In this document: positions 18,092-63,506 of the stretch, in pieces
Layout of the letters: each line of letters begins with the position of its first letter
Numbering within the stretch: the stretch's first letter is position 1
Source of the DNA: Ruminococcus sp.
Lineage (GTDB): Bacteria > Bacillota > Clostridia > Oscillospirales > Ruminococcaceae
Direction of reading: 5' to 3'
Assembly (NCBI GenBank): GCA_017519415.1
Contig: JAFWSI010000034.1
Location: forward strand, 1 to 64,000
Length of the DNA: 64,000 nt
Translations under genes and position numbers: made by a program
Notes under the pieces: generated by a model
What the model saw: only the letters and a program-made list of their open reading frames with translations
What the model was told of the DNA's origin: nothing
Databases searched by the model: none

Positions 18092-18415
18092 ATGAAAAAG
18101 CTTTTAGCAATATGCTCCATATTTTTTACTGTTTGTGCGACTCTCACAGGCTGCGGAGACAACAACGACGGCCACTATTCGGACGACGGAAACGGTATCG
18201 TCACAGAGCACGTCACAACGGAGAAAAGATATGAGACAACTGCCGAAAGAACCACGGATTCTGTCAGGGACAGAGTCGAGGACGCCGCCGACGGTATCGG
18301 TGATGCGGGCAAGGACCTTATCGACGGAGCCAAAAATGCCGCCGATGATATAATCGACGGCGCCGACGGCGAGCCCGAGCACGAAACAACGACAGCTGTG
18401 ACCGATCACAGATAA
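18092..18415 (+). CDS. Small acidic lipoprotein
   Basis: 107 aa from the ATG at 18092 (AGGA 10 nt upstream; an ATG 9 nt earlier lacks room for a site). Lipobox LTGC, then a Thr/Glu-rich segment (TTEKRYETTAERTT) and an Asp/Ala-rich amphipathic region with repeats of the type DGxGDAGKDLIDGAKNAADDIIDGA. Low complexity; no family recognised. The gene is bracketed by the DnaA-box-like cluster upstream and a terminator-like hairpin (GGCGGACTT/AAGTCCGCC, 18421-18439) downstream. Confidence 0.65.
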   Translation: MKKLLAICSIFFTVCATLTGCGDNNDGHYSDDGNGIVTEHVTTEKRYETTAERTTDSVRDRVEDAADGIGDAGKDLIDGAKNAADDIIDGADGEPEHETTTAVTDHR

Positions 18416-18441
18416 GCAAAGGCGGACTTAAAGTCCGCCTC

Positions 18442-18530
18442 GAGCTGAGCCAGCTCGACCGCGACCACGTTGTCGCTCGTAAGCTCGCTTACTTTATTAA
18501 AAAACAATGCTCGTACATCGCTTGCAGCAC
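18442..18530 (+). repeat. 89-nt dispersed repeat, copy P
   Basis: Begins GAGCTGAGCCAGCTCGACC and ends CGTACATCGCTTGCAGCAC. It is the inverted partner of 16705-16793. Like that copy it lies just behind a gene's 3' end and in the same orientation relative to it, here separated by one GC hairpin. Confidence 0.7.
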
Positions 18531-18580
18531 CATCCGACCACTTTACATTTTTAAGAAACGCAAAAAGCGTCCATTTATAA

Positions 18581-18828
18581 TTAATGTGAACTCAATAACC
18601 GCCTTATGGCGGTTATTGCCCTGAACAGAGTTCAGGGGGCGCAAATTCTTTATAATTTGAGGAATTTGCGCATCACATTACTTTATGTCAGGCTCATTTT
18701 GCCCTGAAGGGCAAAACAAGGTGCAGGAAAAATTATCGGGATATTTATTTTTTCCTGCACCCTGACAACTGAAAATCGGCTTTCAAAAGCTGTATAAAGC
18801 CGATTTTCAGTTGTTGAGCAGACATTAA
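18581..18828. mobile_element. MITE-like structured repeat, copy 1 (248 bp)
   Basis: Ends are TTAATGT (18581-18587) and ACATTAA (18822-18828), and the outer inverted repeat extends imperfectly to CTCAA/TTGAG. Inside, in order, are AATAACCGCC-TTAT-GGCGGTTATT, a GAAC/GTTC hairpin, GCGCAAATTC...GAATTTGCGC, GCATCACATTACTTTATGTCAGG, a GGTGCAGGAAAAA/TTTTTTCCTGCACC hairpin, and a long terminal hairpin with an 18-bp stem. A shorter copy with the same ends and modules lies at 62095-62272. No ORF. It lies between convergent genes, 4 bp from the stop of the dipeptidase gene. Confidence 0.7.
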
Positions 18829-18832
18829 TTAA

Positions 18833-20128
18833 TCAACAGCACAGCTCTGCCATTGCCTCTGCCATTATCTCCGCATTTTTCAGCAGATTGTCCACGGTTA
18901 TGAACTCGTCGGGACTGTGCATATGTCCGTCCTCATCGGGAAACTCCGCACCGAAGGCAACTCCGCCATCTATCTCATGGACGTAGGTGCCGCCGCCGAT
19001 AGCTATACACCGACCTTTATCGCCTGTTACGCGCTCATATACACGGAGGAGCGCCTGCACGAAATCACTGTTTTCATCGGTACAGTGGGGCTCCACGCCC
19101 TCGCAGGAATCGATGTCAAAGCCCGCTTCACGGAGCCTTCCGCATATTATCTCGGTTATCTCCGCCTTTGTACGGTCAAGAGGAAAGCGTATATCGATAC
19201 CGCCCTTGATACGTCCGTTTTCGGTACTCAGCATGGACAGCACACAGGTCATATCTCCCGATAATTCGTCGCTGAAGCCCAGTCCGCAGCTCTTTCCGTT
19301 GAACTCGCCGTGGGGGAAGAGCTCCCCGAGGGAGGAAAGCAGCATATTCTCGCCGTAATAGCCGTGAAGAAACATTGTTATGGCATTGTCGCCCTTTTCC
19401 GGAGTTGAAGCATGAGCAGAAATACCCTCGTAGACTGCGTCCTCTTCCTCCTCGTCATCGTTCAGAAAGGTAACGGTGCAGAACTGCGGAACAGCGTTTA
19501 TCACCGTTCCTGCCTGTATATCGAGGATCTCCTCATCGTCAAAATCCGATGAAAAATACACTCTCAGCATACCCTTTTCCGCATTTATCACGGGATACTC
19601 GCCGTCGGGAGTGAACACCATTGACGGTAAATCGCACTTTTTGCGGTAGTACTCCATATCTGCGGAGCCGTTCTCCTCGTTGGTGCCGAAGATAAGGCGG
19701 ACGCCCTTTTTCAGCGGCAGTCCCAGCTCCTTTACGGCTCTTGCGGCAAAGAGCGCCGCAACGGCAGGTCCCTTGTCGTCAATGGCACCGCGGCCCACAA
19801 GTTTGTCCGTTTCGGGCTCGTACCTGAGCACAAAGGGATCTGTAGTCCAGCCTGCACCCACAGGCACCACGTCAAGGTGAGTAAGTACGGCAAGCTCCGG
19901 TGCAAGGCTGTTTATATCCGCAGAGCCTGCGTAGTTATCAACATTATCGACGATAAATCCGTACTCCCCGCACTTTTTCAGCATAAGCTCCAGTGCTCTT
20001 GCGGGCTCATGACCGAAGGGACAGTCCTTGTCCGCTTTTCCCTGTATACTGGGTACTGCCACGAGCTCGCCGAGAAAATCGATCATTTCCTGTCTGTGCT
20101 CCTCGAGATATTCTCTGATCTTAGTCAT
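18833..20128 (-). CDS. pepV: M20-family dipeptidase, PepV/Sapep type
   Basis: 431 aa. Metal-binding motifs of the M20 family are in place: HLDVVPVG (His near residue 84), GRGAIDDKGP (bridging Asp) and GTNEENGS (Glu pair), with the final His in the C-terminal AEFPDEDGHMHSPDEF. It should hydrolyse short peptides in the cytosol with Mn or Zn. N-terminal VAVPSIQGKA matches the Sapep subfamily. Monocistronic; start set by AGGAGGC upstream of 20128. Confidence 0.9.
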   Translation of the reverse strand: MTKIREYLEEHRQEMIDFLGELVAVPSIQGKADKDCPFGHEPARALELMLKKCGEYGFIVDNVDNYAGSADINSLAPELAVLTHLDVVPVGAGWTTDPFVLRYEPETDKLVGRGAIDDKGPAVAALFAARAVKELGLPLKKGVRLIFGTNEENGSADMEYYRKKCDLPSMVFTPDGEYPVINAEKGMLRVYFSSDFDDEEILDIQAGTVINAVPQFCTVTFLNDDEEEEDAVYEGISAHASTPEKGDNAITMFLHGYYGENMLLSSLGELFPHGEFNGKSCGLGFSDELSGDMTCVLSMLSTENGRIKGGIDIRFPLDRTKAEITEIICGRLREAGFDIDSCEGVEPHCTDENSDFVQALLRVYERVTGDKGRCIAIGGGTYVHEIDGGVAFGAEFPDEDGHMHSPDEFITVDNLLKNAEIMAEAMAELCC

Positions 20129-59523: not shown

Positions 59524-59605
59524 TTGTGTTTTTTCTGAAAAAATGATAGAATAATATGTCTGAAATGGCAGCTCTCATTCGATTATATTATTGAATGCAT
59601 TCAAT
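59524..59605 (+). promoter_or_regulatory. Promoter and palindrome before sigma factor 2
   Basis: TTGTGT (59524-59529), 17 nt, TAGAAT (59547-59552), then a perfect 16-bp palindrome ATTGAATGCATTCAAT (59590-59605), immediately before AAAGGAGG. The palindrome could be an operator or a leader hairpin masking the ribosome binding site. Confidence 0.5.
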
Positions 59606-59620
59606 AAAGGAGGAATTCCG

Positions 59621-60199
59621 ATGACAGACAACGACCTGCGTTTGCTTATGGCAGAATCTGTACAGAAATGTCACAGAGCGGTCTTTGACAGATACTGCAA
59701 TTATGTTTACGCCGTAGTCATAAGCGTGCTGCGCGGCTGCGGAAGCCGCGAGGACATCGAGGACTGCGTCAGCGACGTCTTTTTGAAGATATATAAACGG
59801 TTCGACGAAAATACCGATCTTTCGGGCAGCCTCAAGAGCTTTATCGGAGCGGTCTCGCGGAATACCGCTATAGACGCATACCGAAGGCTCAGCGTAAGGA
59901 ACAGCAAAAGCGTATATATCGACGACGAAAGCACGGAGGAGCTGAGCTCCGGCGAGAGGCTCGCGGAAAATACGGAGAAGAAGGAACAGTCCCGTATTAT
60001 CCTCGGAAAGATAAGGGAGCTTGGCGAACCGGATTCGACTATAATAATCCAGCAGTACTATTACAACCGCTCTGCAAAGGAGATAGCAAAAAGCGTTTCC
60101 ATGACGGCCTCTGCCGTCCAGAAGCGCAGCAGCCGTGCAAGGCAGAAGCTCAGAGCCCTGCTCTCGGACGCAGGCATCGGTAAGGAGGGACTTATATGA
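59621..60199 (+). CDS. ECF-type RNA polymerase sigma factor (2)
   Basis: 192 aa from MTDNDLRLLMAES, with AAAGGAGGAATTCCG upstream. Region 2: VISVLRGCGSREDIEDCVSDVFLKIYKRF; region 4: LGEPDSTIIIQQYYYNRSAKEIAKSVSMTASAVQKRSSRARQKL. It overlaps the next gene by 4 bp, the same arrangement as sigma factor 1. Confidence 0.92.
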   Translation: MTDNDLRLLMAESVQKCHRAVFDRYCNYVYAVVISVLRGCGSREDIEDCVSDVFLKIYKRFDENTDLSGSLKSFIGAVSRNTAIDAYRRLSVRNSKSVYIDDESTEELSSGERLAENTEKKEQSRIILGKIRELGEPDSTIIIQQYYYNRSAKEIAKSVSMTASAVQKRSSRARQKLRALLSDAGIGKEGLI

Positions 60200-62097
60200 C
60201 GAAAAACGACCTTTTCGGGGAGCTGAACGATATGGATATTGAAGGTATTGCTCAGGATTTTCCTGTCCTCACCGATGAAGAAAAGGAAAGGATCTATTCT
60301 ATGAGCGAGAGAAAGTACAATTTATCAGACGAAAAAAATACAGAGTTCAATACAGAAACAGATGTAAGCGGTGTTGAGGTGTACAGGCGGCCGAAGTGGA
60401 AGACCGCTTCCATAGCGGCTTCTTTGACGCTGCTTATAGGCGCAGGAAGCTTCGGCGGATACAATATCTCCCGGCAGCTCAGAAACGGCGATAATAATGA
60501 TCCTGACGTTAATACGACGGTCTCTGAGGATATGTCAGCCGTGTCAACTGCAACTGCTGTGGATCCCCGTACCGAGGAATGCCGCCAGACCGCAGAGACT
60601 CTGCTGGCAGAGTATAACGACTTCCTTGAGCCTTTTGACCTTGACGCTATGCCAAAAAACGACTACGGCGGGCCAGTGGAAGGCGATTTCGCAAATATGA
60701 CCGAAGAGGAACTTGCCGCATTTGTTGCTGAAGAAGAAAAAAGGCGTGAACAGACAGACGCTGAACACGGTCAATATATTGATGAAATATGGTATGAGCT
60801 GGGAATAGGCGATTCTTACTATCCGAATTATACATGGCTCGGTTCATGGCGTTACACTCACTATGATATCGGCATGAAGTTCAGCAATACCGACGAGGTA
60901 ATGTCAAAGGCTCTCAGCTTTATGTCACAGAGCCTTATCGACAAACAGTTCCCCAAGCTCATAGGCGAGGAGCTCACAGATTATGAGCCGGACCGCTATT
61001 ACGATCAGAGTAAAGATAAGTGCCCTGATTTCGGTACCTATGCAATGTACAACGGCAGGCTCTACTGTGCTTCATTAAGTTCTTACTCTAATGAGCCTGA
61101 AAAAATAGACTCCGCCTACAAGTTCTATAATTACTTGAACGAGCCTGCGGAGATATACGACATCACCGATGATTCATTCACAGCCGTTGTAAAGTATGAA
61201 TTCACCAGTGTCCCCAACAAGTACGATATGACCATGAAGGTGACAAAAAAGGACGGAAACTGGATAATCGACGATATGGAGCCCACAGGTCCCGAGCTTG
61301 ACAGGCAGAAGCTTGATGTCATAGATAAGATGATGAACAGCGTTGACCTTTATGACAAGATAAGCGCAAAAAGTGTAAGTTTTTATAAAGCTCCGGAGGG
61401 TTCTCCTGCTTTAGTAAAGGATTATTCCGTATTTTATGATATTCTCTGTACAGATAACAGAGCCGCAAGGTCATATAGATTTGGCTATACCGGTGCCAGA
61501 TACAGCGGCAGTGAGGATATAGCAGATATGGCTGAATACGCTGAAAAAGATATAGATACGGACCATGAAAAAGAAACCGAATCCTATTGTGACGGTGAAA
61601 AACGCTATTACTGGCAGAATCCGGAGACTTCTGACGAAAATATAATTTCCAGCTGGAACGATTGCTTTTATCGTGACAGCGACGCCGATAAATACAAAGG
61701 CTTCGAAGCATTAAGATTGACCTCCAGTCATGCGATCGAATATGACCTTTCAATAAACAAGCCTGTTCTTTGCCCTGACGGACAGGGACTTGTAACCAAT
61801 TATCTCTATGAGCTCAATAACTGGGAAATCACAGGCGATATTAGCTTTGAGGGCAGAGACTGCTATGTTATCGAGGGAAAGCGTCCGGAAAAGGACTATG
61901 ATGAATATGAAATAGATAAATTTATGCTCTACATCGACAAGGAAACAGGAATACCGATGTTAGATATTTTGTACCGTGAAAACGGAGATATAGACACTGT
62001 TGATATGTACTTCGATGTAAAGTTAAATGACAAGGCAGAACCTGTTCCCGAAAAGGATATGAGCTGGTTCGACACAAGTATGGAAAACTATAAGTAA
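60196..62097 (+). CDS. Putative membrane anti-sigma/RseB-like protein (partner of sigma 2)
   Basis: 633 aa. Cytoplasmic residues 1-70 (acidic, MSERKYNLSDEKN), a helix (WKTASIAASLTLLIGAGSFGGY, about 72-94), a Thr/Ser-rich linker, then about 520 extracytoplasmic residues. The last 200 (YEYDLSINKPVLC ... WEITGDISFEGRDCYVIEG ... FMLYIDKETGIPMLDILY) look like the LolA/RseB lipid- or peptide-binding fold, though sequence alone does not prove it. Its stop codon TAA is the first three bases of the MITE-like element at 62095. Confidence 0.7.
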   Translation: MTKNDLFGELNDMDIEGIAQDFPVLTDEEKERIYSMSERKYNLSDEKNTEFNTETDVSGVEVYRRPKWKTASIAASLTLLIGAGSFGGYNISRQLRNGDNNDPDVNTTVSEDMSAVSTATAVDPRTEECRQTAETLLAEYNDFLEPFDLDAMPKNDYGGPVEGDFANMTEEELAAFVAEEEKRREQTDAEHGQYIDEIWYELGIGDSYYPNYTWLGSWRYTHYDIGMKFSNTDEVMSKALSFMSQSLIDKQFPKLIGEELTDYEPDRYYDQSKDKCPDFGTYAMYNGRLYCASLSSYSNEPEKIDSAYKFYNYLNEPAEIYDITDDSFTAVVKYEFTSVPNKYDMTMKVTKKDGNWIIDDMEPTGPELDRQKLDVIDKMMNSVDLYDKISAKSVSFYKAPEGSPALVKDYSVFYDILCTDNRAARSYRFGYTGARYSGSEDIADMAEYAEKDIDTDHEKETESYCDGEKRYYWQNPETSDENIISSWNDCFYRDSDADKYKGFEALRLTSSHAIEYDLSINKPVLCPDGQGLVTNYLYELNNWEITGDISFEGRDCYVIEGKRPEKDYDEYEIDKFMLYIDKETGIPMLDILYRENGDIDTVDMYFDVKLNDKAEPVPEKDMSWFDTSMENYK

Positions 62098-62272
62098 TGT
62101 GTCCTCAATAACCGCCTTATGACGGTTATTGCCCCGAACAAAGTTCGAAGAGCGCAAATTCATTTATAAAATAGGAAATTTGCGCATCACATTTCTTTAT
62201 GTCAAGCTCATTTTGCCCTTTGACAACGCTGAATTGTCTTAATGCCAATCCAGCGTTGTTGAGCAGACATTA
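62095..62272. mobile_element. MITE-like structured repeat, copy 2 (178 bp)
   Basis: Same ends (TAATGT ... ACATTA) and the same ordered modules as 18581-18828: AATAACCGCC-TTAT-GACGGTTATT, GAAC/GTTC, GCGCAAATTC...AAATTTGCGC, GCATCACATTTCTTTATGTCAAG, then a short terminal hairpin CAACGCTG/CAGCGTTG. It lacks the GGTGCAGG hairpin of copy 1. The left end overlaps the stop codon of the preceding gene. It also lies between convergent genes. Confidence 0.7.
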
Positions 62273-62280
62273 AATAACAG

Positions 62281-62308
62281 AAAAGCTCCCGGTGGTCCGG
62301 GAGCTTTT
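62281..62308. terminator. Bidirectional terminator of GH5
   Basis: AAAAGCTCCCGG-TGGT-CCGGGAGCTTTT: T-runs form part of the stem, so it works on both strands. Confidence 0.85.
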
Positions 62309-62309
62309 C

Positions 62310-63506
62310 TTATCCTGTATACCTGTCTATATATGCCCTTCTGCCTGACATGGGATCCTTGTTCTTCACGGCGCTTATTATAGCTTCGATTATCTCGGGC
62401 TGAGTCTGTGTGAGTGAGCGCCTGTCAAAGAGAGCAAGTCCGAACCTGCCGTTGAAGCCGTTGTCCCAGTATACGGGCACAAGCCCGTTCTGAGCGGCTG
62501 TTCCGGCGATGAAGCCGTCGTAGTAGGCACGGTTCTCGGTAATGCGGTCGGGAATCCCCGTTGCGGGATTTGCCCTGTCCACGCAGCCGAACTCTCCTAT
62601 GATAACGGGAATGCCTTTATCCACATAGCGCTCCTTCAGCATGGTGAACTGAGCTCTGATATGTGCCTCGTCGCCCCATGCTGCTTTGTACTTGGGGTCG
62701 GCGCTGCCGCCCTCGACTATCTCCTGACCCTTTTCGCCCCACAGGAAGACTTTTTCCTCCTCCTCGCCGCAGTAGTCCCACGGGTCGTAGCAGTGAACGG
62801 AGAGTATAATCCTTCCCTCGCCTGCGGTATTTCCTTTATCCTCGGGGAAACGGAAGCCGTATCCTCCGCAGGTGTATTTTATATCGGTGTTCCAGCCCGC
62901 CGTCATCAGCCACCTGTGAGTGTTGCAGCCTCCTGCGCTGCGGACCGTGTCAACGAATATCTGGCAATAATCGTTTATATTCTCGTAGAACTCCGGGACA
63001 GGATCATGGTATATCCCGTCGAAGACCTCGTTCATGCTCTCGAATATAAGGTGCTCGTCGTAATCCGCAAAGCGCCCGGCTATCTGTCTCCACACAGCGG
63101 CGTACTTCTCCTTGATATATTTCTGATCCCTGCTGTTGCACAGCAGCCAGCCGCCCTTTATTGTATGGTAGCCGTCGCCGTGGATATTTATGATAACGAA
63201 AAGCCCCCTGTTGTAGCAGTAATCCACCACCTCGGCTATCCTTTCCAGCCATTCATCGTCTATTTTATAGCCGTTGCCGTCGTCTATCCTGCTGAGGTAG
63301 GAAATGGGTATCCTGACGGTCTCGAAGCCCGCCTCCGCGACTGCGTCCACCATTTCCTGTGAAGCCTTCGGGTTTCCCCATACGGTCTCGTCGGGAGTCC
63401 CACCGAAATTTGCTTCAAGAGTGTTCCCGTAATTCCAGCCTGCGCCCATTTTTTCTGCTATTTCTTCTGCTGAAACGGTATATATTCTGTTTTTTGATAT
63501 ATCCAT
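62310..63506 (-). CDS. GH5 family endoglucanase-like hydrolase, cytoplasmic
   Basis: 398 aa from MDISKNRIYTV; AAGGGGG lies upstream, and the longer open frame to 63692 is not supported. GH5 (probably subfamily 4): GAGWNYGNTLEA, ETVRIPISY, VIINIHGDGYH, acid/base Glu160 in FESMNE, VHCYDPWDYCG, nucleophile Glu305 in VIIGEFGC. No signal peptide, linker, CBM or dockerin, which is unusual for this subfamily in Ruminococcus. It may act inside the cell on imported cello- or xyloglucan oligosaccharides. Confidence 0.88.
   Translation of the reverse strand: MDISKNRIYTVSAEEIAEKMGAGWNYGNTLEANFGGTPDETVWGNPKASQEMVDAVAEAGFETVRIPISYLSRIDDGNGYKIDDEWLERIAEVVDYCYNRGLFVIINIHGDGYHTIKGGWLLCNSRDQKYIKEKYAAVWRQIAGRFADYDEHLIFESMNEVFDGIYHDPVPEFYENINDYCQIFVDTVRSAGGCNTHRWLMTAGWNTDIKYTCGGYGFRFPEDKGNTAGEGRIILSVHCYDPWDYCGEEEEKVFLWGEKGQEIVEGGSADPKYKAAWGDEAHIRAQFTMLKERYVDKGIPVIIGEFGCVDRANPATGIPDRITENRAYYDGFIAGTAAQNGLVPVYWDNGFNGRFGLALFDRRSLTQTQPEIIEAIISAVKNKDPMSGRRAYIDRYTG

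Follow-up and report, generated by a model that had tools for sequence, protein, structure and literature searches.

Two Copies of a Gene-Less Element in the Window

The window, meaning the whole stretch of 64,000 nucleotides of Ruminococcus sp. DNA that was analysed, holds two copies of a gene-less mobile element with the ends ATGTgtcCTCAATAAC...GTTGTTGAGCAGACAT and a 6-bp target duplication. Copy 1 is the full-length element of 242 bp (18584..18825, plus strand), with borders set by the target duplication and by the family alignment A1 described below. TAATTA stands on its left (18578..18583, plus strand) and identically on its right (18826..18831, plus strand), a duplication that also agrees with the family test given below, and TA precedes the left hexamer, so that the flank reads TATAATTA. 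Copy 2 (62097..62270, plus strand) is a deletion form of 174 bp in which domain 1 is followed by a domain 2 without the 3' arm of hairpin 4 and without hairpin 5. Its left duplication TAAGTA (62091..62096) and its right duplication TAAATA (62271..62276), both on the plus strand, are equal at five of six positions. A whole-genome search (G000; 2.48 Mb, 75% complete) with copy 1 as query found copy 2 with an E value of 6.9e-36 and matched about a dozen other places besides. No ORF of at least 80 aa lies inside either copy, and 242 and 174 bp leave no room for a transposase.

A previous sequence-only reading had seen common ends, a common order of hairpins and two shared motifs in these copies, and all of these are present. 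The borders that it gave (18581-18828 and 62095-62272) are corrected here to 18584-18825 and 62097-62270, plus the 6-bp duplications, and the hairpin that it took for an addition to copy 1 reflects a loss by deletion in copy 2, which lacks the 3' arm of hairpin 4 and the whole of hairpin 5. It also placed both copies between convergent genes, which is correct for the window but holds for merely 12 of the 111 copies extracted from all loci.

Copy 2 abuts the stop codon of a large ORF (60196-62097), and its first base is the last base of that codon. The TAA stop was kept, two of its bases coming from the duplication and one from the element. By eye, 59591-62097 contains an ECF-type sigma factor-like ORF followed by this large ORF, which has one membrane-like segment. 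A terminator-like hairpin (AGAAAAGCTCCCGG..CCGGGAGCTTTTCT) was seen on the minus strand at 62279-62310, directly downstream of copy 2. Since this site lies outside copy 2 and no terminator-like site was found on either strand at 18380-18900, the proposal of a 3'-end element or terminator is not supported. An Rfam scan of the whole window returned a single match at gathering score, at 1-77, and none at either element. This match is a bacterial small SRP RNA on the minus strand (RF00169, 45.2 bits), cut by the window edge.

Copies in Other Genomes and Signs of Transposition

Further copies, the absence of which the sequence-only reading had named as evidence against itself, were found in the same genome and in others. 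A covariance model of domain 1 matched 17 places in the own genome at E<=1e-5 (18 rows, of which one on the reverse strand overlaps copy 1 and is not counted; all places but the four on C68, C75, C69, and C8 were inspected). BLAST with copy 1 gave matches in at least 25 of the 60 genomes of the genus, the own genome included and three of them weak, and in none of the 39 other genomes of the order, with at most 7 candidates scored in each genome. An exact pattern from within hairpin 4 occurred in 95 stretches among 84,980 species genomes, all with Ruminococcus titles except two MAGs (a Bacillota bacterium and an uncultured Clostridia). The pattern was absent from viral contigs, and copy 1 had no match in plasmids or phages.

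Loci L001-L190 yielded 111 copies in which both ends are present. A 60-bp flank was available for 107, and the four others were excluded from flank counts. Copies were merged only if the 40-bp flank and the element were exactly equal, orthologous insertions in sister genomes (e.g., L035, L072, L108, and L129) were counted separately, and the p values given below assume independent copies. A smaller extraction (L001-L186; 104 copies, 100 with flanks) gave nearly the same proportions; during the counting, two nested rows of 63 and 292 bp were left out.

The 6-bp flanks were identical in 71 of the 107 copies; when the right flanks were shuffled 10,000 times, this number averaged 33.3 and never exceeded 46. 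The flanking 6-mers were chiefly TAATTA, TAATAA, TAAATA, and TAAGTA. TAATTA is so frequent that the 43 copies with a different left flank give the cleaner test of target-site duplication: 24 had identical flanks, TAATAA, TAAATA, and TAAGTA among others, while shuffling gave 2.9 on average and at most 9. Comparison of these loci with one another revealed two empty sites. L038 (G035) corresponds to L009 of the own genome with a single TAATAA replacing two, and in the comparison of L121 with L117 the single site is TAATTG. The loci L029 and L051 have the same element sequence with different flanks and different duplications, and 27 of 90 full copies have a twin at least 98% identical with different flanks. 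Identical and near-identical copies, including near-identical ones in another genus, suggest recent activity. New copies also inserted at the duplication of an old copy, which produced tandems. The terminal inverted repeats, ATGTgtcCTCAATAAC versus ATGTCTGCTCAACAAC, are similar yet unequal.

These data show an element that is present in many genomes of the genus, with defined ends of unequal inverted repeats, a 6-bp target duplication, and empty sites. Multiple copies, 6-bp duplications, empty sites and identical copies at different sites bear out the MITE among the readings offered from sequence, and both loci of the window are very probably copies of a non-autonomous, MITE-like transposable element. 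Forms with domain 1 alone, flanked by TAATTA on both sides, were found at L091 and L160. They could be monomer insertions; deletion explains them equally, because copies of their lineages have TAATTG between the domains.

A Conserved Fold of Two Domains

The predicted fold of copy 1 has a free energy of -124.8 kcal/mol (z -14.7) and that of copy 2 one of -54.1 kcal/mol (z -6.3), and for either copy none of 200 shuffled sequences folded as well. RNAalifold on 55 full copies gave two tandem domains, each made of a closing stem and three hairpins, with a similar fold on both strands. The alignment used (A1) consists of 55 copies of 220-250 bp out of 65 rows and may be incomplete.

In copy 1, with all parts given on the plus strand, domain 1 is closed by the arm AATGTGA (18583..18589), which pairs with 18673-18679 as covarying helix 1. 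The closing stem encloses hairpin 1 (CAATAACCGCC..GGCGGTTATTG; 18593..18618), hairpin 2 (CCCTGAAC..GTTCAGGG; 18619..18637), and hairpin 3 (GCGCAAATTC..GAATTTGCGC; 18639..18671), and its 3' arm (18673..18679) lies inside the motif GCATCACATT. The closing stem of domain 2 has the 5' arm ATGTCAGGCTCA (18685..18696), pairing with 18815-18825, and encloses hairpin 4 (TTTTGCCC..GGGCAAAA; 18697..18716), hairpin 5 (CAAGGTGCAGGAAAAA..TTTTTTCCTGCACCCTG; 18717..18764), which is missing from copy 2, and the terminal hairpin 6 (18765..18814), which has the most double changes in the family (12 of 17 pairs). The 3' arm TGAGCAGACAT (18815..18825) is the 3' terminus of the element as well.

The motifs GCATCACATT and CTTTATGTCA had been taken for unpaired, but both pair with the ends of the element. 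CACATT, in GCATCACATT, pairs with the 5' end AATGTG, and ATGTC..GCTCA pairs with the 3' end TGAGC.GACAT; for the 3' end written as GAGCAGACAT, the partner is ATGTCAaGCTC. The start of domain 1 resembles that of domain 2 read as its reverse complement (ATGT-N3-CTCAAYAAC), so that the element looks like two inverted units. Hairpin 1 does differ by one base between the window copies, as had been reported, but the change turns a C-G pair into C-A and hence is not compensated. The terminal stems, described as different in sequence yet paired in both copies, do pair in both, that of copy 2 imperfectly.

Covariation, the second feature whose absence was to count against the sequence-only reading, was found in the family. 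Of 85 named pairs, 33 showed double changes, against a mean of 10.5 in 500 shuffles, none of which reached as high, in a procedure that does not preserve the relatedness of the copies. Altogether 97.4% of 4667 cells paired. When the partners were slid by 1-3 columns pairing fell to 36-47%, a contrast that is inflated because the structure was derived from the same sequences. Together these results show a conserved fold of two tandem multi-hairpin domains.

Selection on a sense RNA should favour G-U among one-sided stem changes. In Ruminococcus, G-U (63 cells in 32 pairs) and A-C (64 cells in 31 pairs) were about equal, so nothing favours selection on a sense-strand structured RNA, which had been one of the proposals, and a role of the fold in DNA, or its upkeep through palindrome repair, is the likelier reading. 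A G-U bias could be masked by neutral decay after insertion.

A Related Lineage in Other Genera

The model of the Ruminococcus domain 1 (R1) had matches in 4 of 148 genomes of the family, namely the own genome, G215 (23 matches), G205 (5), and G209 (1). The single match in G209 lies over unrelated terminator-like hairpins, is probably due to chance, and was set aside. The element of G215 has different stems and the same two-domain fold (z -15.8). When 61 relatives of G215 were searched at the DNA level with this element, a variant that is 70-75% alike was found in G244. Weak pieces were found in G118, which by eye show an element-like arrangement. In that arrangement (L257), three long hairpins stand between ATGTCTGCC and GGCAGACAT, further hairpins continue to the end GTACGCAT, and TATTTA is seen on both outer sides.

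A second model (R2), built from nine sequences that come only from G215, G244, and G205, matched G419 at 5 places and the own genome at 4 in a search over 295 genomes. Copy 1 of the window scored 52 bits with this model but 20 bits when base pairs were left out of the same alignment, and we conclude that the fold outlives the sequences of its stems. That selection or some mechanism acts on structure, as the sequence-only reading had proposed, is therefore upheld by the covariation and by the persistence of the plan, with different stems, in another lineage. Target duplications were present in this lineage too (TAAATA, TATATA, TATGTA, and others). An exact TATAAT within 6 nt was rare, at 2 of 41 extracted left flanks, a list that is perhaps incomplete. 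One-sided changes gave 79 G-U versus 26 A-C cells in 20 sequences, again from a list that is perhaps incomplete, and we suspect that this excess reflects fixed wobble pairs repeated in near-identical copies.

Oriented Insertion at -10 Hexamers

In Ruminococcus, TATAAT stood at -8 to -3 before the 5' end in 70 of 107 copies (84 with at most one mismatch), versus 9 (36 with at most one mismatch) when the reversed hexamer was sought at the 3' end. Most copies thus begin just after a -10-like hexamer, from which the element is 2 nt away at recognisable promoters. TA preceded the left duplication (TAATTA, TAATAA, TAAATA, or TAAGTA) in 74 of 93 copies, compared with 121 of 672 intergenic hexamers (p 4e-32), the controls coming from the same loci with "intergenic" defined by a simple ORF rule. 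On the outer side of the right duplication TA was found in 11 of 74 (smaller extraction). This asymmetry indicates that the target is asymmetric and oriented.

Among the 70 copies with an exact TATAAT, a TTGACA-like -35 element lay 17 bp upstream in 25 with at most one mismatch and in 44 with at most two. The latter is commoner than at intergenic TATAAT hexamers (132 of 371, p 3e-5). Against intergenic TATAATTA octamers the difference was not significant at the same two mismatches (34 of 52 versus 22 of 45, p 0.15), so the octamer alone suffices to explain the link with promoters, and targeting of promoters beyond it is not shown. For the 111 copies, the next ORF was codirectional in 72 (median distance 46 bp), opposite in 30, and not in view in 7, and 2 copies lay inside an ORF. 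These counts show that insertion in Ruminococcus occurs mostly just downstream of TATAAT, with the 5' end of the element facing it, and mostly 5' of a codirectional gene.

The window copies are at weaker targets, in convergent spacers. TATAAT precedes copy 1 and TATAAG precedes copy 2, with neither a -35 element nor a codirectional gene in either case, and a consensus scan found no full promoter-like site at copies 1 and 2. Elsewhere, TTGACA-N17-TATAAT or TATATT lies right before the element at L089 (G024), where the gene whose leader holds the element resembles chorismate synthase by eye, and likewise at L290 (G419).

Search for an Autonomous Partner and a Transposase

No autonomous relative with the same ends was found in L001-L190. 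The 353 end-like sites in these loci (at most two mismatches) formed 7 inverted pairs 300-7000 bp apart; in none did both ends lack a nearer partner, and in 5 one end did. Forms with domain 1 and no domain 2, or the reverse, had no gene between the domains among the forms listed. As for enzymes, PF01609 matched in 3 of 10 genomes checked, PF00665 in 1 of 6, PF13612 in 2 of 10, PF00872 (IS256 type) in 5 of 12 element genomes, and PF01797 (Y1) in 7 of 12 element-bearing genomes. The copy-rich genomes G013 (98% complete) and G056 (79%) had no match to PF01609, PF00665, PF00872, or PF13612, and PF01797 was absent from G056, G044, G007, G033, and G053, of which G056, G033, and G053 are incomplete. 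None of the five transposase families searched is consistently present with the element. In G013 a RAYT-like Y1 frame of 209 aa was seen (L228, 1150-1776), with a weak PF01797 match (E 3e-4); the frame beside it looks by eye like threonyl-tRNA synthetase.

Mechanism and Alternative Explanations

The 6-bp duplication implies a 6-bp staggered cut. The cut, at TAWNTA-like sites, would be the work of an enzyme acting in trans, in all likelihood a DDE-type transposase, which would recognise the unequal ends and perhaps also the DNA domains in folded or extruded form. The unequal ends could account for the orientation, as argued for p-MULT elements in the excerpted text of PMC3942029. The duplicated 6 bp begin inside the -10 hexamer and run just past it (TA[TAATTA]), so that insertion would restore the -10 on its upstream side. 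The host gene would keep its promoter and ribosome-binding site and gain only a folded leader of about 248 nt, so that insertions would be tolerable.

A plain MITE does not explain the constant pairing of six hairpins and two closing stems. The palindrome repair mentioned above would supply one answer: the element would be an ordinary MITE derived from an IS, and template-switch repair alone would keep its stems paired, the fold being functionless. We regard this as possible, with a minor but appreciable chance of being right. Among whole-pair changes, swaps of T-A to A-T are the most numerous (41 of 133 cells), as a single-event conversion would give, and G-U and A-C changes are symmetric. 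It fits less well with double changes in the closing stems, whose arms are about 85-140 nt apart (2 of 6 pairs in helix 1 and 1 of 10 in helix 5), and with a plan that persists after stem replacement in other genera. We also propose, tentatively and as a somewhat less likely option, that the substrate is recognised by its folded shape, two multi-hairpin domains in single-stranded or cruciform DNA, and not mainly by end sequence. Whole stems could then be rewritten provided that the fold is kept, the enzyme would lie outside the searched families, and targeting of -10 hexamers in Ruminococcus would be oriented.

Movement by a Y1 (HUH) transposase with single-stranded DNA hairpins as its substrate, as for REPIN/RAYT elements, would suit a structured, non-coding element of many copies with a similar fold on both strands, and Y1 matches occurred in 7 of the 12 element-bearing genomes, counting the weak RAYT-like frame of G013. 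To our knowledge Y1 enzymes make no target duplications, which are clear here at 6 bp. The ends are ATGT..ACAT instead of GTAG or CGTC, five element-bearing genomes, three of them incomplete, had no Y1 match, and the element motif was not found in L228; this origin is very improbable. Two explanations place the fold in RNA. The element might be a regulatory leader RNA, riboswitch-like or protein-binding, that acts in the mRNA and happens to be duplicated. Many copies do begin near an expected transcription start, often shortly before the start of an ORF, covariation is strong, and the other lineage has more G-U than A-C changes (79 versus 26). The duplications and empty sites speak against it, as do downstream genes that look unrelated by eye, the 30 of 111 copies with the next gene on the opposite strand, the lack of any Rfam match at the elements, and the missing G-U excess in Ruminococcus (63 versus 64), and we consider it very improbable. 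Alternatively, a SINE-like spread, with the element copied from a transcript started at a captured promoter, would agree with the orientation relative to -10 hexamers and with the conserved fold. With the usual discriminator of 6-7 nt, however, transcription would begin some 4 nt into the element, and judging from the flanks the bases before that point are conserved at new sites. The sense-strand G-U excess is again lacking in Ruminococcus, and this route is very improbable as well.

Read as a MITE-like transposable element, the family offers a clean system for two questions: does transposition machinery read the folded DNA that small elements form, and how can promoters be colonised by an element while the genes behind them are not silenced? 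In many 5' leaders of Ruminococcus, stretches also become recognisable as insertions, which matters for the reading of promoters and leader RNAs in these gut bacteria.

Comparison with Known Elements

As far as a subset of PubMed Central shows, the element family is undescribed. It works like a MITE and has the testable features of one except a known autonomous partner; what is notable against known MITEs is that its two-domain fold is conserved and that its -10 target is oriented. The comparisons that follow apply to the excerpted text of the papers cited. With bacterial MITEs (PMC10969869, PMC2229807) the element shares short length, lack of coding sequence, inverted-repeat ends, a target duplication, intergenic position, and stable stem-loops. 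Elements other than CIR form a stem-loop by pairing of the 5' end with the 3' end (PMC2229807), whereas each end of the Ruminococcus element pairs internally, giving two domains; it also differs in having no related IS found and in its oriented insertion after TATAAT. The CIR repeats of Caulobacter are the closest in having two arms (PMC2229807). They have two structural arms with a linker, as here, and a structure conserved between genera, but they consist of two long inverted repeats and a GANTC motif and not of two domains with three hairpins each plus closing stems.

Fixed-orientation insertion tied to sigma-A promoters is shared with the p-MULT elements TnGBS, ISLre2, and ISKra4 (PMC3942029), whose orientation is attributed to unequal inverted repeats. 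These encode a transposase and insert 15-17 bp upstream of the -35, while the Ruminococcus element encodes none and inserts at and just after the -10, beginning 2 nt after it, a position unlike that of p-MULT elements. For the Mutator-like transposase that goes with p-MULT, the search used PF00872, with the matches in 5 of 12 element genomes given above and none in G013 or G056. The bcr1-bcr18 repeats of Bacillus cereus (PMC6542083) likewise are repeats of 100-400 bp with mobile-element features in a Gram-positive group; they are linked to a TTTAT motif, whereas the duplicated target here is TAATTA-like. REPs, REPINs, and RAYTs (PMC3733652) have in common with the element palindromes, many copies, and units in inverted order. 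REPs are 20-40 bp long with GTAG or CGTC tags, in contrast to 242 bp with a target duplication, and assignment to REPINs was rejected on the 6-bp duplication and the ends ATGT/ACAT. Very short relatives of the Ruminococcus element, made of the ends plus little more, were seen at about 1501-1547 of L046 and in L045.
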